DNA of 64,000 nucleotides. It comes from Lampris incognitus. Taxonomy: Eukaryota; Chordata; Actinopteri; Lampriformes; Lampridae. The number at the start of each line of letters is the position of its first letter. Position 1 is the stretch's first letter. This document shows, in pieces, positions 233 to 64,000 of this stretch. Under the pieces are notes generated by a model. That model ran no database searches. It was given only the letters and a program-made list of their open reading frames with translations, and was not told the DNA's origin. The stretch covers positions 104,769,502 through 104,833,501 of the forward strand of contig NC_079213.1 of the NCBI RefSeq assembly GCF_029633865.1, written 5' to 3'. The position numbers and the translations under genes were made by a program.

Positions 233-306
233 AAGAAAAACAGTTTTAGTTGTTGAAAAAAGGACTCTCCGGACTAACAGATGTGTTAATTTTCTCCTCT
301 CCTCAG

Positions 307-2713: not shown

Positions 2714-2785
<72 letters not shown>

Positions 2786-5224: not shown

Positions 5225-8200
5225 CCTGTGATGGACTGGAAGCCTGTCCAGGGTGTCTCCCAGCCTGCCACCCCAATGACTGCTGGGATAGGCTCCAGCA
5301 TCCCACAACCCTGGGAGCAGGATAAGGGTCTGGATAATGGATGGATGGATGGATATTGTTTGTAAAAATGCATGACAACAATGTGCTTCACATGAGAACA
5401 AGTTAAAAATGAAAAGTCAGTCATTTGCATTCTCACTGGATCTGAAGAGACAGAGAGAGATTCTTCAATATATCACTGTCTTCAATGTAACCACCAGCCT
5501 CATCTGTTACTAACTACAGCCTGTGCCTGTTATTTGCTTGCAGGACTTCAGGAATTTCCGCTACAGCCTACCAGTGGTGCCGGGGCTGAGTGTGGACCTG
5601 GAGGCTCAGCGGACCTGCATTAAGATACCAACAAACGGCTACAATGATGTACGGCTCAAACCTTAAAATTGCTGATGCTAAGCAGCTCTGTCACCGTCTG
5701 CAGTTTTCATTTGTCTCGACTGTCAATCATCACTCCTGCCTCTCAACCTGTCTGCCTGTTTTTAGCTGATGAAGGCTCTGGATAAGTCCAACGAGCACGT
5801 GCTGGCCATGGGGGCATGCTTCAACGAGGCTGCCGACTCTCACCTCATCTGTGTACAGGCGGAGGACGGGCAGTACCACACCCAGGCCATCAGCATCCAC
5901 AGCCAGCCAAGGAATGGTGCGTGGGGGCTAAGGTGGCACTGCAGCCGCCTTCCAAGTGATTTGATAGACATCAGTTTGGGAGTGATGAAAATGATGATGG
6001 GCGGCACAGTGGTGCAGTGGTTAGCATGGTTGCCTCACAGCAAGAAGGTCCTGGGTTCGAGCCCCAGAGTAGTCCAACCTTGGGGGCTGTCCCGGGTCAT
6101 CCTCTGTGTAGAGTTTGCATGTTCTCCTCGTGTCTGCGTGGGTTTCCTCCAGGTGCTCTGGTTTCCTCCCACAGTCCAAAAACATGTAGGTCAGGTGAAT
6201 TGGCCGTACTTAATTGTCCCTAGGTGTGAATGTGTGTGTGTGTGGGCCCTGTGTGATGGCCTGGTGGCCTGTCCAGGGTGTCTCCCCACCTGCCACCCAG
6301 TGACTGCTGGAATAGGCTCCAGCATCCCCACGACCCTGAGAGCATGATGAGCGGTTTGGATAATGGATGGAAGATGATGATGATGATGATGTGTAATCAG
6401 GTCACACTGTAATCAAGCCGAAATGGAAGGTTACTTCTGAAGGCGAAAACATTTACTGCAATCAGAAACTGGACTAAAAGACAACAGGTCCTGATTGACC
6501 TTTATGTTATCTTGCCCTTTAAAGAATGTTGTATGTTTGTTTGAATACAAACCCAAAGGAGGATGTGACGCAGATCAAAGTAAAGCACCATCCCTGAAGG
6601 GCCACTAGGTAGCGCCGTGTAATAGACTTCTGCTAAATACCACACAGTCGGGATCAGTCTCGCACGTTATGAGTTGGTGTTCATTTGAAAAATTTGCTTT
6701 GCTTTTGTTTCCTTTGTTTCAGTCACCGGCTCGTGCTTTTTTGTATTCAGCAGTGCCCTGAAGTCCTCTGCAGGATATCTCGCCAAATCCAGCATCGTGG
6801 AAGGTAGGAGGTTGATCGATCAATCAACCAGTCAAGTCATACGCCAGTCGCTCTCTATACAGCACATTTCATACAGTAAAATGCAGTGCAATATAGTACA
6901 TCAGGTGAACAGTGCGCATAGGTAATGATAAAAGAAGAAACAGACAAAATACATCGATGAAAAATAAAAATACTAAACTATGAAATACTATGAAAGCATG
7001 ATTAAACAGTCTGACATGAAATCAGAATGGACAGAACTGATAGTTGATCAACAGCAGGTTAACAGCTTATAAATAAAAGTAGAAGAGCTTTGAGGGGGGT
7101 CTGGGTGGCGTGGCGGTCTATTCCGTAGCCTACCAACATGGGGATCGCCGGTTCGAATCCCCGTGTTACCTCCGGTTTGGTCGGGCGTCCCTACAAACAC
7201 ATTGGCCGTGTCTGCGGGTGGGAAGCCGGATGTGGGTATGTGTCCTGGTCGCTGCACTAGCGCCTCCTCTGGTCGGTCGGGGCGCCTGTCCGGGGGGGAG
7301 GGGGAACTGGGGGGAATAGTGTGATCCTCCCACGTGCAACGTCCCCCTGGTGAAACTCCTCACTGTCAGGTGAAAAGAAGCAGCTGGCGACTCCACATGT
7401 ATCGGAGCCCAGATAGCAAAATTGCTGTGGCCCGGACCTGTCCACCTCATCCGGTTCACATACCGCATGGAATGATGGCTGTTGGGGGGGTCCGCTCCAG
7501 TTTGCCAGATCTGGGCCAGAACCAAGCCATAGCAATGCCGCATCTGCCACATATTTGCCAAAGGTGGCCCATATTTGTTTTGTGATATTTGGGCCATATT
7601 CACCATTTACCACACGGGCCACTTCAGGGTCACATCCAGATTACATGTTGCCCAGAGCACCGCATCTTTGCCAAAAAAGGCCCACATTTGATTTGGCGTA
7701 TTTTGGACATATTTGCTATTATACATGTGGGCCACTTCAGGCTCACATCCATTTTGTCAGCCCTCCCCGGATCGGCAGAGGAGGTGGAGCAATGACTGAG
7801 ATGGCTCGGGAGAGTGGGGTAATTGGCCGGATACAATTTGGGGGGAAAAAAAAGGGGGGAAATCCTTAAAAAAAAGAAAAGAAGGGGTTGTCCTATAGGT
7901 GAAAGCACCATTAAAAGATGTGTTTCAATAAAAGTTTCTAATGAGACATCTGTTCTCTGTTCCAATGGGAGACTGTTCCACAGTTTTGGTCCATTTCCAC
8001 CAAACACTACATCACCTTGAGTCTCAGGTCATCTTTTTGACATAGGTCAAAGTCCAGTAGTTCACTACTTCGGGGGCAGTCTGTGTGACCTTGACACTCA
8101 CGAGAAACAAAGAATTCTTTGCATGACCACGTCACTTGGTGAAACTAGACATCCCTCCCTCAAACTGCTTCATTTGGCGTGTGTTGATCTTTGTATGTGT

Positions 8201-23331: not shown

Positions 23332-26300
23332 CTAGGCCTTTTTCATTTTGCCCATGTGGGCGGTGCTGTTTTCATGGTGGGCGGAGCCATTGGTGGCAGG
23401 GACGTGGTTGATACCGTTGGTGGTGCCGTTCTCGTGGTGCTTGCCGTTGGAGTACACGGTAGCGCCGTTCAGGCTTGGCTTGATGTCCTGCTTCGGCAAC
23501 CGCTTCCCCTTGACGTAGGCCTGGACCCAGAAGTTGGAGAAAAGCACAAAGAAGAAGGTTCCGTACATCCAGATGAGGTGGATGATCATCGGGAACTGGT
23601 AGTCACAGCTGTCCAAGAAGTAATACTGGGTGGCGTGGAGAGACACCAGCACAAACTGGGTCTGTTGGCGCAAAGAACAGAACAAAAAAAATCTCTGAAT
23701 GACCATGAACAATTAGTAAAAAAGGCATTTCTCATAAGGGCGGTGCAGGGAAATATTGACATCTTTACATTTTCATATTTTACAGGCAGCTGAGTGAGTC
23801 TGCCCACAAGGAATTTGTCATAATGGGAAAGATAAAAAACAAGCACATGAAGACTGCTATTTAACAAAGAACATTTTCCATTAAAAAGCAGATCTTTACA
23901 CAAAATTGACATATCTAGTTTTCAACCAAGTTATAGAGAATTATACGGATGTTGATATATTTTCCAAGAAAAATACCCATCAGTCAAATAGGTATTTTGT
24001 GTATATGGTGGTAGTCTATTGTACATCATGTGTTCAGCACTGTATCATTGTACACATGCAATAAGGATAAATATACCTCAATTCAAAGCAAGGATCAGTA
24101 ACAGATATACTGGAGATACTGTCCACATACCAGTTGAATGGCAGTCATGTATTTCTTCCACCACAGAAATTTCTGGAAGCGTGGACCAGCAGCAGCAAGA
24201 CCATAGTAGAAGTACATGATGATGTGGACGGAGGAATTCACCATGGCATGGAACGATCCCATTCCACCTGGGGTAAAAACCACAAAACGCCTATCAATCA
24301 CCCTTGTAATTCTTTTAACATGATAAAGGTTTTGGAGGTTATACTGGTGATTGATGTCCATCAAGGCCACTCAATAACAGTTCTCCTTAGTCATATTCTT
24401 TTTTGACCCCCCCCCCCCCCCCCAAATTGTACTTGGCCAATTACCCCACTCTTCCGAGCCGTCCTGGTCGCTGCTCCACCCCCTCTGCCGATCCAGGGAG
24501 GGCTGCAGACTACCACATGCCTTCTCCAATACATGTGGAGTCACCAGCCACTTCTTTTCACCTGACAGTGAGGAGTTTCACCAGGAGGACGTAGCGCGTG
24601 GGAGGATCACACTATTCCCCCCAGTTCCCCCCGAACGACCAGAGGAGGCGCTAGTGCAGCAACCAGGACACATACCCACACCCAGCTTCCCACCCGCCGC
24701 AGACACGGTCAATTGTGTCTGTAGGTACGCCCGACCAAGCCGGAGGTAACACAGGGATTTGAACCAGCAATCCCTGTGCTGGTAGGCAATGGAATATACC
24801 ACTACACCACCCGAACGCCCCTCCATTTTCTTATAATGAAATACTGAATTCACAACCAAACCTCCCAAAAGACCCAATTAAAAAAAAAGAAAAGGAAAAA
24901 AGGTCTCTGATAACATTAGGTGCATCTGATTCAACACCATAAGTCGATGTCTTGGTCTACAGAATGAAATGTTGACTTAAAAGGTACAATCATATGAACT
25001 CTACCCTGCCAGACAACTTTAGTTACAACATTTTTCTCAGGATGCCATAGGAAACAAACACGTAATTTGTAATTAGTGTGCACTCACCTGGAGCATAGCC
25101 AACTCCCCACCACCAAGTCCAAGGCATTAAGGAGTGGTGGAAAATGTGAAGAAAGGTGATCTGACCATGCTTCTTCCTCAAAACAAAGAAGATCTGAGCA
25201 AGACGGGACAAAAATAAACAGGTCAGCTTGTCTTTTGAGATTTTAAACTCATTCACTAAAAGGTGGTAGTTTACAATGGCCGGTGGTCTTACCGTGTCAA
25301 TAAGTTCAATTATTTTGGAGAACCAGAATAGCCAAGCCACTCGGACCATCTAACAGAGCAAATACAGAGTCGGTCAGTTACGATTGCACAAAACTGACCG
25401 GATTTGATGCAACAAATCATTATGATACAGAGGGAAAAGGACAGGAAATGGAATAAAGGGACAAAAACAAAAAACAGCAAAACTAGAAAATAAAAATGGG
25501 AACGATGATCATTACAGGAAGAATATCAACAGCTAACCAAACTACAGCAGTTAAGTCAATATCACTGCATATCTGTAGCTTTTTTTCCATATGAAAATAC
25601 ATGCACAAGGCATAAATAGGTGTCCAACATTAAATGGGTCAAAACCTCATTGAACAAAATCAGAAGTCTTACTCGTAGTGCTTCAGGGCTTTCAGAAGTA
25701 TCTACTGCATCACACCGCCAGGTGTACGTCGTAACCCAACCAGACATCAAGAACTAAAACAAATAAAACCACAAATCAAAGGAACACTGGAAACCCGAGT
25801 TGACTTTCAATCTTCAGTCATTGGTAAGAAAAAACAAATTTCTAATTTTTTGGATCCCCCCCCCCCAATTGTACTTGGCCAATTACCCTATTCTCCAAGC
25901 CGTCCTGGTCGCTGCTTCACCACCTCTGCCGAGCCAGGGAGGGCTGCAGACTACCACATGCCTCCTCCGATACATGTGGAGTCGCCAGCCACTTCTTTTC
26001 ACCTGACAGTGAGGAGTTTCACCTGGGGGACATAGTGCATGGGAGGATCACGCTATCCCCCCCCCCCCTAAGTTCCCCCTCCCCCCTGAACAGGTGCCCT
26101 AACCGACTAGAGGAGGTGTTAGTGCAGCGGCCAGGACACATACCCACATCCGGCTTCCCACCCGCAAACATGGCCAATTGTGTCTGTAGTGACACCTGAC
26201 CAAGCTAGATGCAACACGGGGATTCGAACTGGCGATCCCTGTGTTGGTAGGCAACGGAATAGACCGCCGCACTACCTGGATGCCCCAGAAATAGAAAACT

Positions 26301-26846
26301 GTGGTGTTGGCCTTTTGTTTTCGACTAAGCTCTGTTGACGCAGAAGCATATAGTGTTAAAATCTCAAATCAAGTCCTTATCCAAGTCAATCACAAACAGC
26401 TGCAAATAGACAAACAGTTACCGGAATACTTCCGGATTGTCAAGAACTTCAATGCCGGTCTCGTACCTCATAGACGATGAATGTTGACAATGCCACAAGG
26501 GCAAAGTTGTAGACAATCATGGCTTCCTTTAACTGGAAGGGTTTGCGGTTTGCCATGATTCGAGGGCCGAGGTACAGTACAAAGAACAGGTAGCACAGCA
26601 GTATTGCGGTCATGGACACTGGACTCTGCATCAGCAGATAGGGTTTCACCCGCGGGTCTGAAAGAAAAGAGAAAATTATCAGCCAAAATTCACTGGTGAT
26701 AAAACAACAAAGTTGGATGAAACAAAAAAGGTAAGTGCTTATTTGCATCCAACTTGAGATGTCAAAATTGTGAGACAAGACCCACCTATTCCCGCCAGGA
26801 GGAACTCATAGATATCCATGACATGGGAGCCGATCTCGTGGAACAT
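23332..26846 (-). CDS. elovl1: Very-long-chain fatty acid elongase ELOVL1, complete, 7 coding exons
   Basis: ELOVL1 is an ER multi-pass membrane condensing enzyme that extends saturated and monounsaturated C18-C26 acyl-CoAs. Coding exons on minus: 26846-26786, 26657-26467, 25753-25673, 25349-25293, 25193-25088, 24267-24131, 23661-23332. All phases join to 963 nt, 320 residues. Seen: [26 protein letters not shown], the family motif KIIELIDT, the histidine box HIFHH at residues 146-150, MYFYYGLAA, and a long polar tail rich in N and G ending KMKKA, which fits a K-x-K-x-x ER retrieval signal as in human ELOVL1. The start gives [17 protein letters not shown]; 5' untranslated sequence continues to an acceptor at 26,877. 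The tail is about 40 residues longer than in mammals. Fish have a and b copies and I cannot tell which this is. Confidence 0.92.
24404..24824 (-). repeat. SINE family A copy in an elovl1 intron
   Basis: A reverse-complement full-length copy with a poly-C/A end at 24,404, the body CCTGACAGTGAGGAGTTTCACC, box B region GGGATTTGAACC, and the head ending ACCACCCGAACGCCC. It lies in sense with elovl1, which is also on the minus strand. Confidence 0.85.
25856..26285 (-). repeat. SINE family A copy in an elovl1 intron
   Basis: A full-length reverse-complement copy: CCAATTGTACTTGGCCAATT at its 3' end, box B region GGGGATTCGAACTGGC, head end at CCTGGATGCCCC. More diverged than the copy at 24,404. Confidence 0.85.
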
Positions 26847-34560: not shown

Positions 34561-34745
34561 GTGCAGGATGACAAAACAAAGGGGGAAAAAAATTCTTCTA
34601 GAACAATACAAACACAAACTACTATTAAGAAAACAAATACAAAATAAAGTGAGATTTTCACAATTTCTAGCGTTAAAAAATAGATGTCAATAAAGTGCAG
34701 AAGAAAGATGTACCCTAACGGGTGAAAATATATTTTTCACTTCAT

Positions 34746-34945
34746 NNNNNNNNNNNNNNNNNNNNNNNNNNNNNNNNNNNNNNNNNNNNNNNNNNNNNNN
34801 NNNNNNNNNNNNNNNNNNNNNNNNNNNNNNNNNNNNNNNNNNNNNNNNNNNNNNNNNNNNNNNNNNNNNNNNNNNNNNNNNNNNNNNNNNNNNNNNNNNN
34901 NNNNNNNNNNNNNNNNNNNNNNNNNNNNNNNNNNNNNNNNNNNNN
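34746..34945. other. Assembly gap (N run)
   Basis: 200 unresolved bases inside or at the 3' edge of the LINE that follows. The true length of missing sequence is unknown. Confidence 0.99.
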
Positions 34946-37510
34946 GTCCAGCACTATATGGGCTAACTAAAACTAAATCATCAGCATACATGAGGTGATT
35001 GATGACAGAGCCACCCACAAGACAGCCTGTGTTACACCCATTCGGCTGTCTCGACAGGTCATCCATATACACGTTGAACAAAAAAGGAGGCAAAATTCCA
35101 CCGTGGCGAACCCCATGGCAGACACATCATTGCCCCATTGAACCTGAAACGTCTGATGAGCATACCAGAAGACAAGGATTCTGACTATGTAATTTGGAAC
35201 ACCTCTAGCCAGCAATTTCATAAATAATTTCTCATGGTTAACCCTGTCAAATGCCTTGGAAGCATCAGTAAAACATAGAAATCAGTAGAAGTTTGGCTTC
35301 TATATTTGGCCACTATCTCCTTTAGAGCATTAATGCATAAATCAGTGCCGTGTTTTCTTTTAAATCCAATCTGATTGTCAGTCGTGAGAATATACATTTC
35401 CAACCTAGTTAGGAGAATTCTTTCCAGCACTTTAGATAGAACACTGGCAAGGGCAATAGGTCTACAATTGTCCATGCTATTTAGTTTGCCAGCCTTGTCT
35501 TTAAGGACAGGGACTAACAGTACAGACGTCACAGAATCAGGAAGAACCCCGTGAACCATCAGACCAGTGAAACACATGGCAAGCATTGGGCAGAGCCTAA
35601 GATTGGCATACTTTAGGTGTTCTGCAGTAATGCAGTCCATACCACAAGTCTTGTTATTATGTAACTTCATAATGGCATCGTGAGACATCAGCTGACCTGA
35701 CTACTGTGTTAACAGAGAGGTCAGCATTACCCACTACAACTGCATTACTTTTAACACAGTTAAATAAATTGCAATAATGCACTCGCCATACCTCAGCTAT
35801 TTTGTCTGAGCCACAAACACCCTCAATATCAGACGGTAGGGGGGTTTTATGATTACTCATGACTTTGACCTTTTTCCAGAAGTTATTATGATTGTTACTT
35901 TGCAACTTCCTGGCAAACGTGTTCTCATTTTGCTTAACAAAAACGAAGAGCATATTTAAATCTTGTATTTGTAATTTTTTTTAATGCTCAAACAATGCCC
36001 CCTGTCTAGGCCTTCCTGACTCAGACCAGAGTGCGAAGGTTTCTCTAGCTGCAGCATGTTGTTCAGCCACAAACTCATTCCACCCATGTTTGATATTATG
36101 CACCTTATTCCTGTGTTTACGGAAGGGCTCACTGGAGGCATTAAGAGCCGTCACAATATTGTAGCGAATTCCGTGGGAATTCCACAGGAACTGCCGCAGC
36201 CGGGACGCGAACCCGTATCTCTCGCACTGCGGGAGACATCGCTGACCGCTCGACTAAAGTGTCCGACCGTTAGTGTCTACTTATCCATGCGCGTTACACT
36301 ACCCAGCTGCTTCGGGAAGCGCATCCCCGCGCTTAAGCATATCAGCTCCTTCACGCCTCCGGGAGCATACGCTTCCGGTGGCCTTATGGTCTCACCAGCC
36401 CACTTCTGACACCAATGTAGCGAATTCGGTGGGCGGGGCAACTACAGGGGCTACAGCAACCGGGACGCGAACCCGTATATCCCGCACCGCGGGAGCCATC
36501 GCTGACCGCTCGACTAGAGGGTCCGACCCGTTAGCCAAGGGCCAACGTGTCTACTTATCCATGCACGTTACAATATTATCGTACATGGCGCAGAGGTCAG
36601 CAGCATGATGTAGGTCTTCGCAATTCATATTTAAGCACATTAAAGCATCCCTAAGCAGTGCAATATTATTAAACAAACTGTCAGTTAGGGTAGAATATCT
36701 ATCAATATCCTCCTCAGTCAGATTTGTCCAATCTAGCTTCCCTGTATTAGCAGCATTACCAGTAACAGCCAGCAGGGGTACATTCTCAACATTTAGCAAC
36801 ATAGCAACAGGTATGTGACCAGAGGTGGCCAACCCATAGCATATCTCTATATTATCCAGAGAGGCATGGACATCGGCTGTATACATACAATGGTCAAGCC
36901 AAGAGGTAGTATGCCACGCTTGACTTAAATAACTAAAACTCTTATCAGGCAACAGTACTTTGCTAGATAGAATTAAATTGCTATCATTACAAAACTGCAG
37001 CAGATGTTTTGCAAATATAGAATTGTTATCTGACAAGTCAGCATTAAAATCTCCAATTACATAGACACAAGTTGAGTCACTGTCCTCAATAAAAGAGTGA
37101 ACAAAGGCTAGCCTGTTCAGAAATTCATCCTCAGTCTCATGGGATTCATAATTAAACTCGGATAGGATTATAATTAAACTCGAGCCCAATGGCCCAATCA
37201 ACATTTAAATGTACCACCTTAACCAGTGGATCGTATTTGCAGTTCCAGAGTACGGCCACACCACCAGGTGTCCTACCTCGTACTATTTCCGTGCTGAGAT
37301 CAGTGGTGGATTCACCAGCACCATGGGAATCCTCGTGTATAGTGTTCAGTCTGTCTAAGTCCTGTTTGGCAAGCCAGGTCTCTTGTATGCACAGAATGTC
37401 ACACTCGTCCAGCAGTGTGTTGACCACCAAACGTCTTGATTTATCCGCAGCACTTTGTCCTACACGCAGGCCGCGTGCGTTGTATGATACAACCCATATT
37501 TTGAGAATTT
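34946..37510 (-). mobile_element. APE-type LINE, minus strand, 3' end lost in the gap
   Basis: Endonuclease domain first: VVSYNARGLR near 37,500, then DILCIQETWL, VIGDFNADLSD, SWLDHCMY and SGHIPV, the catalytic landmarks of an APE-type nuclease (37,505-36,580). Then comes the reverse transcriptase: GMDCITAEHLKYA, PVLKDKAGK, NCRPIALASVLSKVLERI, DNQIGFKRKHGT and MYADDLVLVSP (35,950-34,946). A short direct duplication around 37,150-37,180 (ATAATTAAACTCG twice) shifts the frame inside the nuclease. A further shift near 35,260 and another near 35,690 break the reverse transcriptase. A 413-bp TRIM-like element splits the copy at 36,160-36,572. Clade uncertain (I/Nimb-like is my guess). Confidence 0.82.
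36160..36572 (-). mobile_element. TRIM-like LTR mini-element with tRNA-like sequence in its repeats
   Basis: The two terminal repeats (36,160-36,298 and 36,416-36,572) begin TGTAGCGAATTC and end CGTTACA, so they have TG...CA borders. They are flanked by a 4-bp duplication ATAT. On the minus strand the right-hand repeat is followed at once by TTGGTGTCAGAAGTGGG, which resembles the primer-binding leader of fish Gypsy elements. The internal part is only 117 bp and codes for nothing. Each repeat contains a tRNA-like module (box A-like TAGTCGAGCGGTCAGCG, box B-like GGGTTCGCGTCCC). The element looks structurally whole as a non-coding element. The repeats differ at several sites, so it is not recent. 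Confidence 0.65.
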
Positions 37511-38833: not shown

Positions 38834-39769
38834 AATGGCTAACACGCAGTATATGTAAAAACATTCCCATATTGACGGTTTCATTCATTAGATTTCTTCC
38901 TAGTGCAGATAAAAAGGTTTCATTTTTGTGCTTTAGCACGTTTTGAGTTTCACATTCAGTCCTTTTTTCTTTTCCAGCGTCGTGGCCGTTCAACAAATGA
39001 GGCATGAGGGTGCACTGAGCGAGGTCTCTAGGCCCGCGAGGTGGTTTTATCCTCCAGATCCTCCATATCATGGACTCCCAACGCTTCACCGCCTTAGCTG
39101 AGAGACAAAAGTGCTGCGTCTGCGAGGCGGAGATAAAACGATGTGGCCATTTTCTCTCTCGGAGCTTTCGAGACGCTCATAATCTTTAGTGAGCCACGTC
39201 GTGCCATTAATTCCCTCGCCTGCGCTTCGCTTTTCCCCGCTGATTTAATTTTACTGCTCGCAAATCACAGCAGGGCTATTTCCAGTGCGAGTTGATGGCA
39301 GTCTTGTGACAGGTGGAGGCATTTTGGTCACACAAACAGCGGTGGTGGTAGCAGCAGACACATTCAGAATAACCCATTCTTGGTGCTCAGGCAACAGACA
39401 TCGCTTATCAGATCATTCAAGCTTTTTCCATTGTTAACAATCTGACAATGCTGTGTTTTTGTTTTTTTTTTGTTTCTTTGCTTTGCAGCCATGGTTTCCT
39501 CATTTTTGTCGTACTTCCTGACCGGTGCCCGCCGACCCCATTGAAACCATGGATTGATGGGATCAGAAGTACAGGCCTGTGACCATTCCTGACCTCCCTC
39601 ATTGCACTGTTTCATAGAGAACTCACCACATCTGACGACAAAAAGCTTCTTTCATGTGGGGGTTGACTTGGTCCCATTGACTAGGAAGTGCACCTCTGAA
39701 TCGAACTCACACAAAATACAGTGCGTGACCCGGTTACCCCTCTCAACTCAGAGCTACAGCCGGGTATCG
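38831..39769 (+). other. mob3c upstream and presumed 5' untranslated region
   Basis: It holds no repeat family that I recognise. The frame containing the mob3c ATG is open upstream to 39,602, but that stretch does not resemble MOB proteins. It is probably untranslated sequence or intron. Confidence 0.45.
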
Positions 39770-42700
39770 ATGGCGCTGTGTCTTGGACAGGTTTTCAGCA
39801 AAGACAAAACGTTCAGGCCGCGGAAGCGGTTTGAACCCGGCACCCAGCGCTTCGAGCTCCACAAGAAGGCCCAGGCCTCGCTCAAGTCCGGGCTGGACCT
39901 GAGAAAAGTAGTCCAACTGCCGGAGGGCGAGAACATCAATGACTGGATCGCCGTGCACGTGGTGGACTTCTTCAACCGCATCAACCTGATCTACGGCACG
40001 GTGAGTGAGTTCTGCACCGAGCGCTCCTGCCCCATCATGTCCGGCGGCCTGCGGTACGAGTACAGGTGGCAGGACGGGGACGACTACAAGAGGCCAACCA
40101 AGCTACCGGCGCTCAAGTACATGAACCTGATGATGGACTGGATAGAGTCGCTCATCAACAACGAGGACATTTTCCCCACCAGAGTAGGTGTGTGTGAGGA
40201 GCCCACGCATACAAACACAGCTGGTTATAAGCGGATGTGTTACACCGATGTGCGACCGAACACGGGCGATGCCCATGTTGTGCTGCAGAGGTTCAAATGG
40301 AGGTTAATTGCATCACAATGGTGACATTTACACGACAACACTCGAAAAAATGAAACGCTGAATTTACTTAAAAAAATGTAAGTCATTGGGCGTCCGGGTG
40401 GCATGGCGGTCTATTCAGTTGCCTACCAACACGGGGATCACCAGTTCGAATCCCCGTGTTACCTCCAGCTTGGTCGGGCGTCCCTACAGACACAACTGGC
40501 TGTGTCTGCAGGTGGGAAGCCGGACGTGGGTATGTGTCTTGGTCGCTGAACTAGCGCCTCCTCTGGTCGGTTGGGGCGCCTGTTCGGGCGGGAGAACTGG
40601 GGGGAATAGCGTGACCCTCCCAAGCGCTACGTCCCCCTTGTGAAACTCCTCACTGTCAGGTGAAAAGAAGCGGCTGGAGACTCCACATGTGTCGGAGGAG
40701 GCATGTGGTAGTCTGCAGCCCTCCCCGGATCGGCAGAGGGGGTGGAGCAGCGACCGGAATGGCTCGGAAAAGTGGGGTAATTGGTCGCATACACATGGGG
40801 AGGAAAAAGGGGAAAAATGTTAAGTCAAGTGATTCCACAGAACTGTGCTGAACAACTTGTAAATCCTGCAGCAAATAGTAATAAATCACATTTCCTAGAA
40901 GTTGCTTAACACAGCTGCAGGGAACCACATGGCGTATCGTTTTTACCTAAATCCAACTTTTCATTTTTTTGAGTGAACAAGCGTAGGACTGGCTGATGTG
41001 GACAAAATCAAATATTTGACATTTTTGACCAAATAAGTCGATATTGAGATGTGACCATATTTTGGGGATGTCTATTAGTGCTTTCGTAATATATTTAAAC
41101 ACAAGACATTGTTGATAAGTGAGCATTAGTAATGTGGATATGGTGACCAAGCAGGTGGAGGCATTCATTGCTCATTTCACTAAAACAGTAGAAAAAGTTC
41201 AGAAAACTGTCTCCCTTTACTGTAATGCAGCCTTTAAGATCAGGAAATGACTACATTTAAGTTATATCACCATATTACCACAAGCACAATCCCACAACAC
41301 GTAAAGTCTCGTATCACCATATTGATACCCTAGCCATAGGTTGCCCGGCTCTAATTGATCGTGTGACTCCGGGTCTTTTTCTAACACTGAAATTCAACAT
41401 TTGTTGGATGAGAAGACTTAACTCCAGCTAGCATAATCGATACACAACATACTGAATTCAGTGTGCCAAACTGTCCACAAGAATCAAATTTGGGCTAATG
41501 AAATGACTGCCTTTGCTTCTCCGGGGCGTTAAGTGCAAAGCATTCGCTCTAAGTTAGGTTGCGCTACAGTGGAACTACCAACATCATGTAGCGACGGAAA
41601 TAGCCACCGCAAAACAAGATCACATCTGCGGGCCGTTCCCTTCTTCTTACAACTCTGCCCTTCTTCACATCAGGTGTCCCTTTCCCCAAGAACTTCCAGC
41701 AGGTGTGCAAGAAGATCCTGAGCCGCCTCTTCCGGGTCTTTGTGCACGTGTACATCCACCACTTTGACAGCGTGTGCAGCATGGGAGCCGAGGCCCACAT
41801 CAATACCTGCTACAAGCACTACTACTACTTCATCTCCGAGTTCAGCCTCATCGAGCACTCCGAGCTGGAGCCACTGGTGAGGGCGCTTTTAAGGTATAAC
41901 GGTGAAGGGGCGTCCGGGTGGCGTGGCGGTCTATTCCGTTGCCTACCAACACGGGGATCGCCGGTTCGAATCCCCGTGTTGCCTCCGGCTTGGTCGGGCG
42001 TCGCTACAGACACAATGGGCCGTGTCTGCGGGTGGGAAGCCGGATGTCGGTATGTGTCCTGGTAGCTACACTAGCGCCTCCTCTGGTCGGTCGGGGCGTC
42101 TGTTTCGCGGGGGGGATAGCGTGATCTTCCCACGCGCTACGTCCCCCTGGTGAAAGGTGAAACGCCTCACTGTCAGGTGAAAAGAAGCGGCTGGCGACTC
42201 CACATGTATGGGAGGAGGCTTGTGGTGGTCTGCAGCCCTCCCCGGATCGGCAGAGGGGGTGGAGCAGCGACCGGGACGGCTCGGAAGAGCGGGGTAATTG
42301 GCCGGATACAATTGGGGAGAAAAAAAGGGGGGGGGTGTAAAGGTGAAGACAGGAGGCAGGAAAAGTGGGGATTGGGTGGATATGTTTGTTGTCTTTTTTG
42401 AAGGGGAGGTTGTCAACATTGTCCTCATGGCTGTCCGTCTATGGAAAAGTCAACAGTGCTCTGTGAGATGGGAAAGTCAGCGGTGCTCTGTGATACAAAG
42501 GCTCATTCATAACTAGGTCATGAATGTCTGAATGGTGGTCTGTCCATCAACAACAAAACCCGATCTCTTGAGACTTAATCTAGCTGTGAAGGAGGCTTCA
42601 TATGACAGAGCCGTGTGTGTGTCTCCCGGTAAGGGTCAGCACAGAGGAAATACTGAGAAGTTTTTGTGCATGTCTGACTTTCACTTCACAAACTGGATGA

Positions 42701-43812
42701 AAGCGAATTCAAACGGCTGACGTCAAAAACGTGACGAAATGACATCGTTGTCCTATTAATGTACGTAAGATGACGTGTCTGATTCAACAAGGCAGTACCC
42801 CGGGCGTCTGGGTGGCATAGTCGGCTATTCCATTGCCTACCAACACGGAGATCACCGGTTCGAATCCCCGTGTTACCTCCGGCTTGGTCGGGCGTCCCTA
42901 CAGACACAATTGGCCGTGTCTACGGGTGGGAAGCCGGATGTGGTTGTGTGTCCTGGTCGCTGCACTAGCGCCTCCTCTGGTCGGTCGAGGTGCCTGTTCG
43001 GGGGGGGACTGGGGGAATAGCGTGATCCTCCCATGCGCAACACCCCCTGGCGAAACTCCTCGCTGTCAGGTGTGGAGTTCCCCTGGTGACTCCCACATGT
43101 ATGGGAGGAGACATGTGGTAGTCTGCAGCCCTCCCCGGATCGGCAGAGGGGGTGGAGCAGCGACCGGGGCAGCTCAGAGAGCAGGGTGATTGGCCAAGCA
43201 CAGTTGGGAGGGGGGAAGAAATCCCACCCCAAGATTGCATCATCAAAGAAACTTGTTAAATACTTGGCAGAAGCTGGGCTGGTTGGAGCTCGCCACCTTC
43301 TTAAGAGAAACAGATTTTTATCTACTCATTAAAATAATTCAGAATCTGTGCATCACCGTTTCGTTGCTTTAGGCTGACAAAGAGGCCTCAGCCACATCAG
43401 AATAGCCGGAGAACGGATGTCTGGGCGTGAACACAAGGCCTCAGTTGTCGTCATTAGGACGCTAAGGTCAAGTCGTCCCTCTGGCAAAGGGAATCCGTGA
43501 ATCCATAGCGAGTCATTTATGTCTCCCCACTGCGGGCGATGAATCTCGTAAACATAACACCGTGACCTACTTTGTTTTATAGTCCTCACTGTCACACCCG
43601 AGGCAGTTCTGCGGTTACTGTCGTGGGAATGGCAACAATGTCGTTACTCGTATTAAAAGATAAATATACACGTCACCATCTTTCAAAACAGTTGTAGAAC
43701 GCTTATCGTCCATCTCTTAGGCCCTCAGCAGCTGGATGGGTTTAACGTGCCTCCCCCCCCCCCCTCCCCTCTTTTCCAACAGAAAGAGATGACAGAGAAG
43801 ATCTGTAATTAA
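39770..43812 (+). CDS. mob3c: MOB kinase activator 3C, complete, 3 coding exons
   Basis: MOB proteins are small zinc-binding adaptors that bind and activate NDR/LATS-type kinases; MOB3 members act in the cytoplasm and bind MST1-type kinases. Exons 39770-40187, 41674-41876 and 43783-43812 join in phase to 651 nt, 216 residues, the usual MOB3C length. It starts [20 protein letters not shown], as in remembered human MOB3C, and ends EMTEKICN. The expected zinc ligands are present: C82 and C87 (FCTERSC), H164 and H169 (VHVYIHH). Other landmarks are [43 protein letters not shown] and [16 protein letters not shown]3A and MOB3B are the alternatives; the start and C-terminus fit 3C best. Introns carry three SINE family A copies, all in the sense direction. 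Confidence 0.94.
40388..40815 (+). repeat. SINE family A copy in mob3c intron 1
   Basis: A full-length copy from GGGCGTCCGGGTGGCATGGC through box B CAGTTCGAATCCCC and GAAACTCCTCACTGTCAGG to the end ACATGGGGAGGAAAAAGG. Confidence 0.88.
40816..41673. other. mob3c intron 1, right part
   Basis: AT-rich intron sequence up to the acceptor at 41,672-41,673. No supported feature. Confidence 0.5.
41908..42335 (+). repeat. SINE family A copy in mob3c intron 2
   Basis: This is the cleanest copy in the window. The tRNA-like head has GTGGCGTGGCGGTCTA (box A region) and GGTTCGAATCC (a perfect box B core), with the acceptor-like GGGCGTC start. The body ends AATTGGGGAGAAAAAAAGGG. Confidence 0.9.
42336..42797. 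other. mob3c intron 2, middle part
   Basis: No supported feature. A short direct repeat (CAACAGTGCTCTGTGAGATGGGAAAGT and CAGCGGTGCTCTGTGATA) lies at 42,450-42,503. Confidence 0.45.
42798..43217 (+). repeat. SINE family A copy in mob3c intron 2
   Basis: Full-length head with box B GGTTCGAATCCCC. The 3' part is somewhat altered: a GTCAGGTGTGGAGTTCCCC junction lacks the usual GAAAAGAAGCGGC. It ends GGCCAAGCACAGTTGGGAGG. Confidence 0.85.
43218..43782. other. mob3c intron 2, right part
   Basis: No supported feature. A run of about 14 C lies before the acceptor CAACAG at 43,777-43,782. Confidence 0.5.
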
Positions 43813-50576: not shown

Positions 50577-53500
50577 ATGAGCATGATTATGGCAAGCCGA
50601 GGCTTCTGCCTTCCGTCTCAAGCCACCATCCATGAGCTGTTCTCTGTAGCGAGGGATGCGGGTATTGTCCCTGACATCTCCCTGGACCCCGTCCTCCCTT
50701 CTTTTTTCTCCCTGGATTCCTCAGCCTCCGTGCAGCACCAATACACCTCAATACAGCGGAGCATGACGGAGGAGCAGCGCACGGCCTTCCGCTACAACCT
50801 CACCTCCACCCTGGGAGGGAGCGGCGGCGGCGGCGGCGGCGGCGGCGGCAGGGTGACCCATGGAGGAGTTGGGGTCGTTGCTCTGGCCCTTTCCATTCTC
50901 TTTGACCAAGTGGCTGAACAAGTAGGAAAAAAAGAATTAATTCCCGTACTTTTTGAAGTAGATCTGGTTTGTGACTAAGGGCTTGCACTTACAATAAAAG
51001 GGGTCATTACTTTACAAGGAAATCTGCCCTCTGTGGCATAGATATAGATGGTCGTGAGGTTTCCAGACATGTGTTTTTTCATATTGCTCAGGCAATGGAG
51101 ATACTAGTGTGTGCATACGTGATATTTCTTTAATGAGTCCGGGCAAGGGAGAGGTGATTTGCTGGGTGCATAAGACCAACTGATAACAGGATTTTACTGT
51201 TCGATCTAGAAAGCTGCTGGGATAGGCTCCAGCATTCCGCGACTCCGACTGGGATAAAAGGCTTGGATAATGGATGGATGGATCTAGAAACCCTATTGTC
51301 ATTAAGCTCCATCGCTATCCATAAAGTCTTTTTTTTTTAGAGGGATTTGTGTTGAATAACAGTGCAAATCAGCTTATTAAAGCTGAAATTTGCAAAATTT
51401 CTCTATTGATAAACAGTGATTTTATCCATCTGGACGATGGAGTCAGGTTCCACAACACTACCAGTCCCCTTTACCATGGTTGGGATCACTCTCCAGTCTC
51501 CATATACCGCTGTTGAAATGTTTTGACCAGGTAGGACGAACACTGGTGCAGCAGCAAACACACACGTGTTGGAAGAAAGACTGAAGAAGACTGCTGACGT
51601 GGCCATGACAGTCAATATGACTGCACAACAGTGTTCCCCTATAGTGTGATGTAGTTTGTAATACGTTAGACTGTCTGTGGTGGTTTACTGCTGAGCTGAC
51701 GGCACACCAGCCACAACGGCTGCTACACTTGGTTTATAGTCCCAGAAAATCAGTGTCAGTGGGTCTGTTTCTCTCTGCCTCCTACACCCAATAGTCTGGT
51801 CAGTTAAGGGCAAATATGGGGTCAAGGCTGCAAAAAGTCATTCACATTTGAGCCAATGTTTTTCTGTTAATTTAGGGTCCAATAAAGAAAAAAATGCAAG
51901 GAGCCCAAAATTTTAGGTGGGGGAAGTCTCTGAAATGGCCACGCCCACTTTTTAGGCCTGGAAATCAGTATCTCGGCTCCTGAATGTCGCAGAGAGCTGA
52001 TCATGGGCTCAAAAGAAGCAGAAGCACCACATTTATATAAGCATTATGAACAAACATATACCCCAAAACCTTTACTTTTTCAGGTATTTACAAAAAACTA
52101 ATTTTCACTGGTCACATACATGGTCACGCCCACTTTTTAGCCCTGGGACTATATCTCAGGCTCAGCTCTCGGAGGTTGCCCCGAGTTGATATTGGGCTCA
52201 AAAGATGTGGAAATAACTATTTATATTAGTGCTCTGAACAAATATACTGTATGCCCTAAAACCTTCACGTTTTGAGCTATTCATGAACATGTTCTTTTTT
52301 CCATTGAATTGATCAGCAGCATGCAATCAACTTTAGCCAAATCTGTGCAAGAAGGCTATACAGTTTGTTTGAGTAAAAGTGTTACATCTACTCATGGAGT
52401 GCTAGTATTCAAGTTGACTCTTTGTTATAAGAGGAGGAACCCAGTAACCACCAAAGAAACAAAGCAAACCATGTGAGGTCCAAAAAAATCTTTATTTTAA
52501 CCTCACACATCCCATCAGACTGGATTCAAACACTTGCTGAGGCACTTGCAATAAATGAGACATTTCATCCCTCTGCCAGCACAAGAACATGAGGTACACT
52601 TATTAGATCTGCAACTACACACCCCTGTTACTTGAGACAATGTATCTCTTGTGGAAACTGTGCTCCACTTGACGAAGAGTTCCTCTCCTTCGGTAGTCCA
52701 ACCCCATTCAATGACAGGGGGACAAGGGAGTTGTAGCAGGCTGTTTCCCCACAGCCATCCTGCCTGGAATGTAGCTCTCAACAGATGCTGTAGAAGCGCA
52801 TCCTGACTTGGGGGTAGGTCTCTCAGCTCATCATTAAGTGAGTGCTTGAACAGCTGGAATCTGAGCTCATCTATACTGACACAGTTGTACAGTCCAGTCT
52901 TGTTGTACCAGCTCATTACCCAGGGCTCAATAACTTCCATGCTTTCCTTAACTGTCTCGATACTAGGGCAGCAACTTAGTCCTCTCAAAGCAGCAGTGAG
53001 TTCTGTGGACTTACTGTGGTTTATCCAGGCTTTGTATTGAGCAGTCTTTGAGTGGCCAAAGAAGGCGCTCACAGAATCACAGCCACTAAAAGAATGGAAC
53101 ACAGGCATGGCATCGGCCACATCTCCACCAAGCTTCTTGTGTGCTTCTGTGATTGAGTAGAATTGGCGTTTGCCAGGAACTGCAAAGTCAACTATAAGTT
53201 GCAAGTCATTACATACTGATAGGAACTGTGTAGTGAACCCTAGTAGGATGACTACCACATCGGAGTCGACTGTTCTAACTGTAACTGACTTGATCCCCTT
53301 GTTTAGCATGTGCATCACATGGCAAACGATGCGGTTGTCAGCCTCCTCAAGCATATCTATGCTGTCATAAAGCTGGATCTCGAAGCTTTCGCCGAAGTTT
53401 GCAAGCACCTTTCTGCCGTAGGTGATGCTGAACTCCTTGTCCCAGTTCCACGCTTGTGCCTTAGCAATCCTGGCGAACATTAGATTCAGGGCTACTTTGT

Positions 53501-56500
53501 TGTCTACATTAGACAGAAAAGCTTCAAAGAATTGCTTAGATTCTGGCATGGTGTCATTCTCACTGAAAGCCATCTGTGAACTACCTGCTGATCCCCGGTT
53601 CTTCCTAGTCGCAGTCTTGATACTCATATTCTGGTAGAGGTCAGCCACAATGTCAATACGATTGGCTTTCTTCTCATGACCGATCCTGGCAATGCTGTTC
53701 AACACTTTGATTACAAAGTCTTGGAATGTCATGCCTTTGGTGAGAGACTTTGCCATGATTCGTACTTGCACAGACAAATCTATCACAAGTCCTTCTGAGG
53801 ATGTAGATTGAACTTGTACACCGATGTCCTTAAGAATTTGAGACTTTTGGCTATGATAAATATCTCCATCCTTTGTTGACAAGGCGTCGGGTAAACCTGA
53901 AATTGAAATGAATAGTTAAGCTAAGTGTAACTCTTGGGCTTACTGTCAAATCAATTAACTTGAATGTGAAATTGAATCAATGAATATCACTGTATTAAAA
54001 ATCTGGTAAGACTTAAGTAACATCTAAAATATTTGAATAACTGACTTTATATCAATTAGTTTCACCTGTGAATTCACCACCAAATAACTTCCTTGTCTCT
54101 TCTTCTCTTGATCTGCAGGCCTCCTTCAGCTTTGCAAAGGTTCCTTTGGGTGGCTTGATTGCAGGGCTAGCGAGTTGGACTTTTGCACATGAACTTGGGA
54201 GTTTCAGGGCATTTCGTGAGATGGTTGCATTGACATCCTTCTTACTTAATACAATTCGCTCCTGCACAAACTGGTCATGCTGAGTTTTGCCGACTGTAAA
54301 GACAAAACTGGAGTCTTTACTTATGACATCTGGGAAGGGAATGGATGAGTTCAACCTCATGAACTGAGCTTCATCGAACGGGTTGGTAAGGATACCCTGG
54401 TACACCTTGAGTGTGTGGCTTGAAAATGTTTCCTTGAAGGAATCCAGCATTTCTTTGTGCCCGTGTGATGGATCTTGACCTTCGACCTCATCTAGGTAGC
54501 GCTGGATTTCGGGTAGCGCAAGTTCGAGTTTCCTGAAGAACTCTTGATCTTCCCGATTGATGATATCGACATATCCAGTGTCAGACTTGATGACCTTTAT
54601 GTTATGTTCCTGCTTTTGATCACATGCAATCTTTGAGAATGGGTTGTCTCTGGTGTTTACTGTGAAAGAGCCTGAAAGAAATTCCTTGAACAAGTATGGG
54701 TGTCTCCATTTGAGCTCTTTGAGATCCTGAAGAAACACTGATGCCCATCTGGCATAGTGTGTATGATCAAGTGCAAAGAAAAGAGGAATGAGCTGCTCAA
54801 GTGCACTGATCATCATGATGAAGTTTGCCTCTCGAAAGGATCTTATGAAGATAAGAACCTTCTTGATTGTGTCAACAACATTGTTCCAGTAGTGAAACAT
54901 GGGGCTGTTTTCATTGGCCACCCAGTTACTCCAAGTCAAACTGTTGTCCTCTAGACGTTTTGCCTGAAATGCTTCATCTCTCTTCTTGGCCAGCACCACA
55001 GCCAGGAGTTGAATACAGTATCTAGCCTTCTTTATGGAATTCACATCGCAGACAGCAGTTGTCAGACCTGTGATATTCAGATTAGCTGAGGTTAAGATGG
55101 TATCAAGGCCAGTTCCTTTTATCAACTGCCCAACACAGACAAGAGAAACCTTCTCAAGGTGCAGCCCACCCATGAACGCGAAGTATGAATGAGAAAACTC
55201 TTCCCCCATGGCCCACTGTATCATCTTCTTGATGGCATAAAGGGGCTGATCGGATCCACCCACTGCAACCTGGCCTGGGTTAAGATATCTTGTGTATGAT
55301 ACTGCTATTCTCATGACATGGAGCTGAAGACAACTAAGATATTTTCTAAACTCATGATTCGTGTGTGTATTGTGCTTCATGCTTTATAACATAGGCAGCG
55401 AATGAGATTCATGTCAAATATAGCTTTTTACAACCTTCAGGAGCTGATACGTGAAACGTGACCAGTAAAAATTAGTTTTCTTAAAATATCTGAAAAAGTA
55501 AAGGTTTTGGGGTATATGTTTGTTCATAATGCTTATATAAATGTGGTGCTTCTGCTTCTTTTGAGCCCATGATCAGCTCTCTGCGACATTCAGGAGCCGA
55601 GATACTGATTTCCAGGCCTAAAAAGTGGGCGTGGCCATTTCAGAGACTTCCCCCACCTAAAATTTTGGGCTCCTTGCATTTTTTTCTTTATTGGACTCTA
55701 AATTAACAGAAAAACATAGGCTCAAATGTGAATGACTTTTTGCAGCCATTTTGCCTTAACTGACTAGACTACAACTATATCACAACACTGTTCTTCTGGA
55801 GGACTGACTGTCCAACACAATCATCACATCATCACCACGTTTCATATGGATAAAATAACACAATAAAAAGTCATTGAATGCAGCTTTAAAGCGACATTCC
55901 TGAAGATTTACATGCAATTTTTTTAATACTTTCTATTGCCGATGTATTTAAGACATAAGCTTAAATGCTTTCATAGTTGCTCACTTACCGGAATGACTTC
56001 CCCTGGAAAAATCATTAGCCTTTAGGGTCATCTGGTGTGTTATGTCTTCAGAAAGCAGCTGAATACATACTGACATATCAGCACTGGAAACTTTGGCTGG
56101 ACCTTTGGGATTTGGAGTCCTCTAACATTGCTGCAATAAGCATAAACCGTATCACCAGAAGTATCATCAGCAAAGACGACATCCTTCAGGACTGGAGTTT
56201 TTACCTAAATATATTCATTTTAATGATTTCTCACCAGGTGCGGTCACGGGGTTCTTCAATGGGGGGATCATCAGTCCATGGATCCCAACCTCGGATGATC
56301 TTTGGTATCAGAAGCTCTTCCAGAATTGGCGAGATCATTCAGAGCTACCTCGGCCAGATCCCTGAAATAGCCAACAATCAGGACAAGATGGCCGAGACCA
56401 CCGAACTCTATGACAACTTGCTGAAACTGGAGATGATCGACCACTTTGAGAGGATGACCAACAAGAAGAAGAGGATGGGCTCAGAGTCCATGAAGCAGTG

Positions 56501-60479: not shown

Positions 60480-62630
60480 CAGCGGCGTGGTGTGGAAGGG
60501 TGACATGGGCCCAACGTGTCGCCTCTCTGGAGAATGCTGGGAGGTGGTGCAGAGGGAAGGCGACGCGGGTCCAGCGCGCCGTCATCCTTCAGGGCGCTGG
60601 AACGTGGTGCGGAGGGTCGACGTGGGCTCAGTGCGTCGCCCCCCAGTGGAGTGCTGGAATATCGGGTGAGAGGGCGACACGGGCCAAGCGTGCCGCCCTC
60701 CGGGTGCAGGCTAGCCGCCTCCACAATATGGAGCCAGGCGGTCCCGGTGCAGCATGACAACCCACCCCCTGGGTGCCACCTGCACCCGATAGACCACCGC
60801 CCCGACTCGCTCCACCACTCTGCAAGGCCCCGTCCACTTACTCTCCAACTTGGGCGACCTTCCTTTGGTTCTCTTTGGAGCGTACACCCACACCCTCTCC
60901 TCTGCCTGGAAGTCCGCTCCTTTTGTGTGCTGGTCGTACGCTCTCTTCTGCCGAGCCCCAGCATCCTTGACCTGCCTCCTGGCAAACTCATGCGCCACCT
61001 CCATGCGGGCCCTTAACTGGTCTGCATACTCTGGCCCCGGCATATCCGGGGGGCTGGCCAAACATCAGGGACGGGGGTGTGCGCAGCTCTCGCCCCAGCA
61101 TCAACAGGGCTGGTGTACATCCTGTTTTCTCCTGGACCACCGACCGACAAGCCAAGAGCACCAAGGGCAGCTGGTGGTCCCAGTGTTTTTGGTCCTTTGC
61201 CACCACCAACGCCAACTGTGCGTCCAGCGTGCGGTTAAACCACCCCACCAGGCCACCACTCTGCGGGTGGAGCGGTGTGGTCCGAGTCTTGTGGATGGCC
61301 AGCTGCTGACACATCCCAGCGAACAGCTGCGACTTGAAGTTGCGCCCCTGATCCGAGTGAAGCTCAGCTGGGACCCCGAACCGACTGAATATCCCCTCGA
61401 TCAGCAAGTTGCAGACTGTCGCCGCCTCCTGGTCCGGCACAGCGTAGGCCTCTGGCCACTTAGGGGAAGTATTTCATTGCGACTACTACATAGTGGTTGC
61501 CATGGGGGGGGGGGGGGTGAGGGAAGAGCCCAACACGTCCACCGCAACCCGGTCCATCAGGTATCCCATCCTGTACTGCTGCAGTGGCGCATGGCTCTGA
61601 CCCGGTGGACCCTTCCGGGTGGTGCAGCGGTCACATCTCCTACAGAAGGCCTCAACATCCTGCTGGCAGCTGACCCAATAAAATGACTGGCGGACCTACC
61701 TCAGCGTCTTTGTCGTTCCAAAATGGCTGACCCCCGGTGGCCCGTGCTGTGCCTCCAACACCTCTGTCTGGCGCCTCCTGGGGACCACGACCTGCCACCT
61801 CTCTCCGGTTGTCGCCAGCTCCAGCCAGTGCCTCCACAGCACTCCATCCTGCATCTTCAGGCCCTCCAGCTGCGACCAGAGGCCCCTCACCGTTGGGCTA
61901 AAGGGCATGACCCCTGACCACTCTGGGCAGCTGCCTGCCTCCACCCACTGGATCACCTGGGCCAGGTCCTCCTGCTGGTCCTTAGCCCAGTCAGCGGTGT
62001 CCTCCAGCAGCACCACATGGGCACCTCACCTCCACGTTCCCCAGACATCGTTCCTTGGCCTCCATCCCGGAGCACTGTGCACACCCCTCATCACAGGGCC
62101 GCCTGGACAGTCCATCAGCGTTAGTGTGACTCTCACCTTTTTAATGCACAATGGTGAACTGATACTCCTGCAGCTGTTCAATCCACCTGGCCACCTGCCC
62201 CTCTGGCTCCTGGAATGATAGCAACCACCGCAGTGAGGCATGGTCTGTTCTAATGACGAACGGGAGGCCACACAGGTGATGTTTAAAGTGTCTGACCGCC
62301 TCCACCCCTGCCAGCAGCTCCCGACGTGTCACGCAGTAGTTCCGTTCTGCTCCAGAAAAGGCACGGCTGTAGTAGGCGACCGCCTGATCGCCCTCTGGAG
62401 ACAGCTGCAGCAGAATCGCCCCCATGGTATCAGCACTCGCGTCCGTGTCCAGTACAAAGTCTCCCCCGGGCTTTGGGGCAACCAGGACGGGGGTGTCGCA
62501 CAACACCTGTTTCAGTGTGTTGACGCCTGCTACCGCATGTCACCCCAGTCAAACCAGGTGTTCTTGTTGGTGAGACGGTGGCAGCCACCGTGGCAAAACC
62601 CTGGACGAACCGACGTTAGTAGGACGCCAA
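60480..62630 (-). mobile_element. Ty3/Gypsy-type retrotransposon fossil, pol 3' part
   Basis: Minus-strand pol parts in order: the end of reverse transcriptase at the right border, RNase H (62.1-62.5 kb, with DTDASADTMGAIL and RTDHASLRWL), the zinc-binding and linker part of integrase (61.7-62.0 kb), integrase core (61.0-61.4 kb, with FGVPAELHSDQGRNFKSQLF and TTPLHPQSGG), and a C-terminal domain (60.7-61.1 kb, ending near LHRDRLAPY). It is broken in several places and looks old. Its right side is interrupted at 62,631 by a plus-strand Gypsy element, so the rest may resume beyond the window. The left limit is approximate. Confidence 0.85.
60485..60712. repeat. Diverged tandem repeat of about 57-60 bp, four units
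   Basis: Units share GGCGACRCGGGYCCAGCGYGYCGCC followed by GTGCTGGAAYRTGGTGCGGAG-like sequence. The array lies just beyond the pol C-terminal part of the minus-strand fossil. Confidence 0.65.
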
Positions 62631-64000
62631 TGTTATGTATGGATGAGGCTATTCTACCAGTGACCACTAGGTGGCACCTGTATTCTATATTGCTGTTGTC
62701 TGGGTTGTAACCAACGGAAGAAGAGTTCCTAGTAAAGCGTGGAAATGAACAGCCGTGTGTGCGTTGTGGTCCCTGCATCGTGTGTGAAATTGTTTACACC
62801 ATAGTGTTATTAGCCAGCTACATAATATAAATTGGCGTCGAGATGTGGTGTAGAAACTTTTAGGCACCAAAGTAGCCGTGAAAAGGGACGTTTTCTACTT
62901 GTTTGGACGAAGTCATCCACGCAGTTGTAGCTAATGCTAGCATGGCGCTAGCCAACTGACTAAACTTGCTAGCTGATGATGAGCAGTGGCAGCGGAGAAG
63001 AAAGGGAAAAGGAACCAGAAGGACGCATCATGGCGGGAATTATTGGCGGTATGGAACCATTTGAGGAATCCGGTGAACAATGGGCTGCGTATATTGAGCG
63101 TTTTGAGAATTATATCCTGGCTAATGAGATCAGGGATGCTAAGAAGGTGCCGGTTCTATTGAGTGTGATAGGGCCAAAGACCTACGGATTGTTGCGCAGT
63201 CTGATTGCTCCAGATAAGCCTGGGGAGAAGACGTATGGTGACATTGTAAAGCTGTTGAAAGGACATTTCGCCCCCAAACCGATAGTGATAGCAGAGAGAT
63301 TCCGTTTCCACAAGAGGAATCAGGAGGACGGTGAGTCGGTGGTTCAGTATGTTGCTGTGCTTAAAGGACTTTCCGAGCATTGTGAGTTTGGTGGTTACTT
63401 AGAGGATGCACTACGGGACAGGTTTGTTTGTGGAATGAAAAGTGAAACGGTTCAGAAGCGCCTGTTGACCGAGGACAATTTGACCTTTCAGAAAGCGGTC
63501 ACTTATGCAGTTTCAGCAGAAACAGTGGCGCGTGACGCACAACAGTTGAGCGGCTCGTTAAAGGTAAATGCCGTTCTCTCTCAAACATCCCATGCCAAAT
63601 GCAGGCGGTGTGGAAAGACAAATCATAGTGGTGATAACTGTTGGTATAAAGATAGAGACTGCCATCAATGCGGCAGGAAAGGCCACATTGGTCGCATGTG
63701 TAAAAGTAAACCCAAGAATGACTATGGCAGAGAGAGGAAATACAGAGAAGGGAAACCGGAGTTTAAAGGCAAAAGCAACACATCCAAACACAGTGGGAGA
63801 GACAAGAAGAAGAAAGTGCATTGTGTGGAGGCCAGTGACAATGAAAGTACAAGTGAAGGGACTAAATCTGACAATGATAACAATTGCCATGTTATGCACT
63901 GTTTCGTAAGGGTAAATATTCACGTATATCTGTGTTACCTGAAATAAATGGTAAGAAAATTGAAATGGAATTAGACACAGGGGCTGCTGTATCTTTAATT
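62631..64000 (+). mobile_element. Ty3/Gypsy-type retrotransposon, 5' part, continues past the window
   Basis: A 5' terminal repeat begins TGTTATGTATGG at 62,631 and ends at about 62,822-62,832, followed by a leader with ATTGGCGTCGAGATG. A gag frame of 323 codons follows (62,976-63,947), with a capsid-like region (EQWAAYIERFENY) and two CCHC knuckles (CRRCGKTNHSGDNC and CHQCGRKGHIGRMC). A protease-like LDTGAAVSLI lies at the very edge. The part in the window looks whole; nothing can be said of the rest. It is inserted in the minus-strand Gypsy fossil and so is younger than it. Confidence 0.85.

Follow-up and report, generated by a model that had tools for sequence, protein, structure and literature searches.

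A probable non-autonomous deletion derivative of a recently active, most likely AcademX-type transposon in Lampris incognitus

The window analysed here, 64,000 nucleotides of Lampris incognitus (contig NC_079213.1, positions 104,769,502 to 104,833,501), contains a DNA transposon copy of 3980 bp. The copy is very probably a non-autonomous internal-deletion derivative of a cut-and-paste family that was active very recently and is most likely of the AcademX type. To move, it probably needs the full-length copies that occur, in smaller number, at other places of the genome. An initial annotation had described the element as an apparently intact Academ-like transposon with all parts of a working element. 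Its ends, flanks and frame were confirmed; its intactness was not. Compared with a longer form of the same family, 2853 bp are deleted and residues 1–633 of a 1514-residue product are absent. The transposase gene is incomplete, and the copy does not qualify as an autonomous transposon.

The ends of the element are well defined. The tips TAGTCTGG...ACTAGACTA are located at 51792 and 55771, and the trinucleotide CAA, already reported, stands outside each as a target site duplication (TSD). The terminal inverted repeats (TIRs) are identical in 305 of 324 alignment columns, with gap columns counted as differences. The gaps, one of nine bases and one of a single base, are both close to the tip. The original estimate of a 97–98% match applies to the core of the repeats, with 98% identity over 290 nt. 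The diverged second copy of the inner TIR sequence beside the left repeat consists of pieces of 36 and 52 nt, which are 83% and 71% alike. On the right side, self-comparison revealed only a 26-nt piece similar to this second copy. The minus strand encodes a frame of 898 codons from the ATG at 55380 to the stop codon at 52515. It is interrupted by a GT...AG intron of 169 bp, and predicted splicing joins the exons in phase, as first annotated. The protein carries the motif HSFSGCDSVSAFFG and a cysteine-rich tail, both of which had been recognised.

Longer frames first appeared in a protein search. They belong to copies of 6832 bp (L031) and 6833 bp (L033) with the same ends as the window copy. 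The window copy aligns to positions 1–3538 (99.9%) and 6390–6833 (99.6%) of L033, and two bases are common to both sides of the deletion junction. The long form has four exons, with splice sites picked by eye; its three introns measure 144, 101 and 169 bp, and the predicted product has 1514 residues. One of the five long copies examined is open throughout: L039, flanked by the TSD TAC, has 1514 codons open across the four exons. The others are L031, L033, L038 and L040. Pairwise, L031, L033, L039 and L040 differ by 10–21 substitutions in about 6832 bases. Residues 18–898 of the window protein are residues 634–1514 of the L039 product, with one difference. A first hint of the missing protein front was a partial Pfam match of the window frames to DUF6589, below the cut-off and at profile positions 281–397 of 410. 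The lost N-terminal part contains two C-x2-C modules, at residues 9 and 119, which may bind zinc, and a DDNIN block at residue 482. Because an older relative has a similar block at the corresponding place, DDNIN is read, with modest support, as the place of a candidate first catalytic Asp.

The 3980-bp form is referred to as deletion class A. A DNA search of the 1.48-Gb assembly with the window element scored 36 of 208 candidates. All 36 matched the full query from base 1 to 3980, in line with the expectation that further copies with the same ends exist. Thirty of these copies (L001–L030) were compared. With 76 variable columns in all, two copies differ on average at 5.9 of 3980 bases (range 0–11). 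The proposal of a young DNA transposon is supported by these values, and the divergence suggests an age well under a million years. The 898-codon frame is open in all 30. In L032, a further class A copy that was obtained by the protein search, small insertions and deletions are present and the first exon is broken.

Matching 3-bp flanks of many different sequences were present in 37 of 38 family elements with both ends found; taken with the 36 full-length matches, this exceeds chance. The long copy L038, one end of which is truncated by 92 bases, is excluded from this count. At the class A loci, the longest flank match is exactly 3 in 29 of 30 cases; the match of 9 at L006 is located inside a simple repeat. 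A target motif was considered, but none strong was visible by eye at the 30 sites; the middle TSD base was G at one of them. For each of the 30 sites, the two flanks were joined and searched for in the window and the other retrieved loci. Empty sites with a single TSD, which had been proposed as a check, were found in some repeats. L003 and L005 are inserted in two copies of one repeat, and in each the site occupied in the other is empty and has one TAT (742 bp at 99.9% and 653 bp at 99.5%). L009 and L011 provide reciprocal empty sites with a single ATT (223 bp at 96.4% and 326 bp at 98.2%). A single TSD copy was also found for L012 and L030 in diverged repeats and for L016 in five of seven window repeats. 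The alignment for L014 is gapped, and that for L026 is off by one base in the TSD. Candidate matches across the joined flanks were also obtained for L015, L024 and L028.

Some copies are close neighbours. L044 and the window copy, some 88 kb apart, have in common a base at position 1047 of the element, which is absent from the 29 other copies among L001–L030. This relation fits a local hop. Four copies of another deletion class, class C, lie within about 81 kb (C2:98203727-98284887), which could be due to local hops or to regional duplication.

Deletion derivatives outnumber the long form in the counts. The class A junction was found at 81 places (79 exact, two with one mismatch), the class C junction at 22 and the class B junction at 7. 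At 23 places the sequence across the left edge of this class A deletion is intact, although some of them may not be full-length. Each junction pattern had 0 matches in the reversed control. Among 40 scored matches, from 76 candidates, of a search with the internal section, 13 span it fully or within 7 bases, 5 have the class B extent, 21 the class C extent and 1 another extent. A 28-base TIR pattern had 307 genomic matches and none in the control, corresponding to about 150 elements. From 98 of 100 TIR matches listed, 49 elements were paired by hand. Their sizes are 3961–3980 bp (25 elements), 3247–3260 bp (9), 6768–6833 bp (6) and other (9), so that 40 of the 49 fall within three size classes. 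One copy each of classes B and C was translated. Both keep the N-terminal exons, and the predicted proteins of 519 residues (class B, L035) and 315 residues (class C, L034) retain both C-x2-C modules.

In the class A frame, 31 distinct nonsynonymous changes, 6 synonymous changes and 0 stop changes were counted; with a 4:1 weight on transitions, the expected numbers are 25.6, 10.1 and 1.3. A frame held open by selection was rejected, as there is no sign of purifying selection, in a test with low power because the class A copies are young. It is very unlikely that the 3980-bp form is the complete autonomous transposon and the 6.8-kb form an expanded version. The preserved frame and the high number of class A, the most numerous class counted, agree with this possibility, but the gene runs on in frame through the additional 2853 bp, which contribute two more exons and the beginning of the third. 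The 17 leading codons of the short frame originate from 5' sequence that meets a stop within a few codons in L033 and is taken as non-coding in the long form. The older relative L036 has a long upstream open reading frame (ORF) at the corresponding place, though it is weakly similar to residues 1–633, and the short frame shows no sign of purifying selection.

Truncated products of the deletion classes may regulate the full-length transposase, as KP does for P elements in Drosophila. This analogy is unlikely to apply. The class B and C fragments have the layout of a P repressor, as far as it is described in the available text of PMC12393704, and the C-terminal part that they lack might come from class A. 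A KP-like repressor combines an internal deletion with a retained DNA-binding N-terminus; class A is without the N-terminal modules, for which DNA binding is itself an assumption. The class A frame, with no sign of purifying selection, again speaks against regulation, and the products are predictions. A variant of this idea combines the parts: the C-terminal product of class A and the N-terminal products of classes B and C may restrain the full-length transposase or, as the two parts of a naturally split Academ transposase, complement one another in trans. The class A product would contribute the second half of the presumed catalytic fold, the nuclease-like part and the cysteine tail. We consider this quite improbable.

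The preferred explanation is a deletion derivative mobilised in trans. The transposase from long copies would act on the common TIRs, cut out shorter copies and insert them with a 3-bp stagger. Class A would have originated once, by a deletion with 2-bp microhomology, followed by multiplication partly through local hops. The 898-codon frame would owe its existence to the fusion and to the young age of the copies, and would not encode a working transposase. Several points weigh against this explanation. Transposition, RNA and protein are all predicted from the DNA sequence. The class A copies compared were the best-scoring ones, which biases identity and open frames upward. Gene conversion or duplication of whole regions could account for part of the near-identity, but the flanks and TSDs of the copies examined vary, which speaks against this. 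L035 has no TSD, the sole exception among the 38 elements. The catalytic residues are candidates, and that the short product has no transposase activity is equally a prediction. The alignment score of the DDNIN block was reached by 9 of 1000 shuffles. The N-terminal part aligned weakly with the older family and not clearly better than shuffled sequences: its local score was 51, with a shuffle mean of 39.9 and a maximum of 58 in 200 shuffles. The unmatched flanks of L035 perhaps resulted from recombination between copies.

The family has older relatives in the same genome. In a DUF6589 search of the genome, all eight matches exceeded the cut-off. L036, L037, L041 and L042 encode the same kind of transposase; the DUF6589 cut-off was passed by older relatives. 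L043 resembles a further family. The older family is clearly related to the C-terminal half, with expect (E) values of 3e-22 and 1e-10 in a small comparison. NCBIfam had no credible match, and no relative was found in the viral contigs and prokaryote genomes scanned.

The protein ends with nine cysteines within the last 34 residues. This tail resembles the tesmin/TSO1 CXC domain, below the profile cut-off: a 48-residue segment matched PF03638 at profile positions 3–36 of 38 with an E value of 0.11 and 13.2 bits (cut-off 23.5), and the scan of the whole window frame gave no match to this profile. A COG5_C match in the window frame was at chance level. No helicase was found in Pfam scans of two window frames and three L031 frames, with the 13-codon first exon outside the scan.

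The putative nuclease assignment is based on motifs. The window protein and the older family, at 29% identity, have acidic columns in common, among them the Asp of VID/IID, the Asp of VAD/VFD, EEAD, DxD and CD. Their order is FEN-like, as in FEN1. Sequence and profile searches of the PDB with the protein found nothing credible. In hhalign, the two families matched human FEN1 with a probability of 0.3%, over an unrelated stretch. The FEN1 score of the window protein was reached by 11 of 500 shuffles, with the alignment in the wrong register, and that of the relative L037 by 276 of 500. In the segment tests, the scores were reached by 201 of 1000 and 93 of 1000 shuffles. An AlphaFold2 model of the last exon had a mean predicted local distance difference test score (pLDDT) of 39.1 alone and 41.5 with eight rows. 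By eye, the order of strands and helices looked PIN-like. Foldseek returned 0 matches with E <= 0.001, and no flap nuclease was among the 50 of 591 matches listed. Altogether, Pfam, the PDB profile search, hhalign, shuffles and Foldseek provided no support for an XPG/FEN-type nuclease domain.

The element resides in a predicted host gene with exons near 50.5–50.9, 56.2–56.5 and 57.2 kb. By eye, plus-strand exons can be joined in frame at 50921|56238 and then into 57190.., which places the element antisense within a predicted intron of 5316 bp, as initially proposed. The three host-gene ORFs flanking the element matched no Pfam family. Matches to the flanks of L014 uncovered a repeat some 390 bp long, of which the window holds seven or more diverged copies. 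Genomic copies of this repeat outside the window were used as transposon targets. These and other features are compiled in the table.

Table. Positions of the transposon copy, its parts and other features of the window
Feature	Position	Strand	Basis or remark
Transposon copy, deletion class A, 3980 bp	51792..55771	-	gene on minus strand
Left TSD, CAA	51789..51791	none	flank comparison
Right TSD, CAA	55772..55774	none	flank comparison
Left TIR, 324 bases	51792..52115	+	self-alignment
Right TIR, 314 bases	55458..55771	-	self-alignment; 10 bases shorter than left, near tip
Diverged second copy of inner TIR sequence, adjoining left TIR	52111..52212	+	self-comparison
First exon of 898-codon frame	54066..55380	-	codons 18 onward are residues 634 onward of long product
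Predicted GT-AG intron, 169 bp	53897..54065	-	present too in long copies examined
Last exon, acidic nuclease-like motifs and nine-cysteine tail	52515..53896	-	stop 52515-52517
Deletion junction	55328..55329		AG common to both sides; 2853 bp of long element absent
Predicted host intron holding the element in antisense, 5316 bp	50922..56237	+	in-frame splice signals by eye
Copies of the ~390-bp repeat	3423-3801, 7093-7407, 24452-24821, 25884-26286, 40388-40771, 41907-42286, 42802-43175
ORFs resembling LINE (long interspersed nuclear element) reverse transcriptase and endonuclease	34737-37508		by eye; N stretch between
LTR (long terminal repeat) retrotransposon pieces: integrase, RNase H, gag-like frame with zinc knuckles	60711-63947		by eye
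Host exon, ELO family	26449-26805	-	Pfam
Host exon, Mob1/phocein	39593-40324	+	Pfam

To our knowledge, Academ is among the less studied DNA transposon superfamilies. In the present family the long copies are nearly identical, and one of the five examined has an open gene of 1514 codons. The family also has clean 3-bp TSDs, empty sites and deletions that recur in three classes. These features make the mechanism of an Academ-type transposase directly testable, and likewise the way in which deletion products take over their own transposon family in a vertebrate. The window copy alone would be the wrong source for such work. Among the literature matches listed, mostly outside subscription papers, no title concerned an Academ family active in vertebrates. 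One Academ-1 gain is listed for Daphnia lines in the accessible part of PMC8594854, so no claim is made that mobile Academ is unknown.

Membership in Academ is likely, not proven. It was judged by TSD length and the helicase scan against AcademX as described, and the most likely AcademX type is a placement by description. Some KDZ (Kyakuja, Dileera, Zisupton) transposons also have cysteine-rich modules, and Kolobok has the TSD TTAA. That the family belongs elsewhere, either to Kolobok or to a superfamily that has cysteine-rich domains, as KDZ does, is very improbable. The cysteine-rich tail, the weak Pfam matches and the knowledge of Academ from descriptions leave room for it, but the varied 3-bp TSDs in 37 of 38 elements differ from TTAA and from the 7–8 bp of Kyakuja and Zisupton, the KDZ families described in the available part of PMC12730594.

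In the available text on Academ, TSDs are 3 or 4 bp in AcademX and 9 or 10 bp in AcademH, a difference related to nuclease and helicase (PMC10045372). The present family resembles AcademX by its varied 3-bp TSDs, its candidate nuclease motifs and the lack of a Pfam helicase in the scanned frames. It differs in that the window copy is a deletion derivative and the nuclease homology is unconfirmed by profile. In teleosts, the accessible part of PMC4746887 lists Academ in zebrafish, medaka and stickleback, calls it absent in tetraodon and gives 334 to 987 copies per genome, averaging about 90–180 bp and 0.01–0.02% of the genome. In contrast to such scarce short copies, Lampris incognitus has about 150 elements by TIR count, and 40 of the 49 that were sized belong to three size classes. 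The P element belongs to a different superfamily but also combines an autonomous element with internal-deletion copies that have intact ends, and few full-length copies are described for one experimental and some natural Drosophila populations (PMC12393704, available text). Class A, which keeps the C-terminal part and loses the N-terminal part, is the opposite of KP, whereas the copies of classes B and C, one each, are KP-like in layout with the N-terminus kept.

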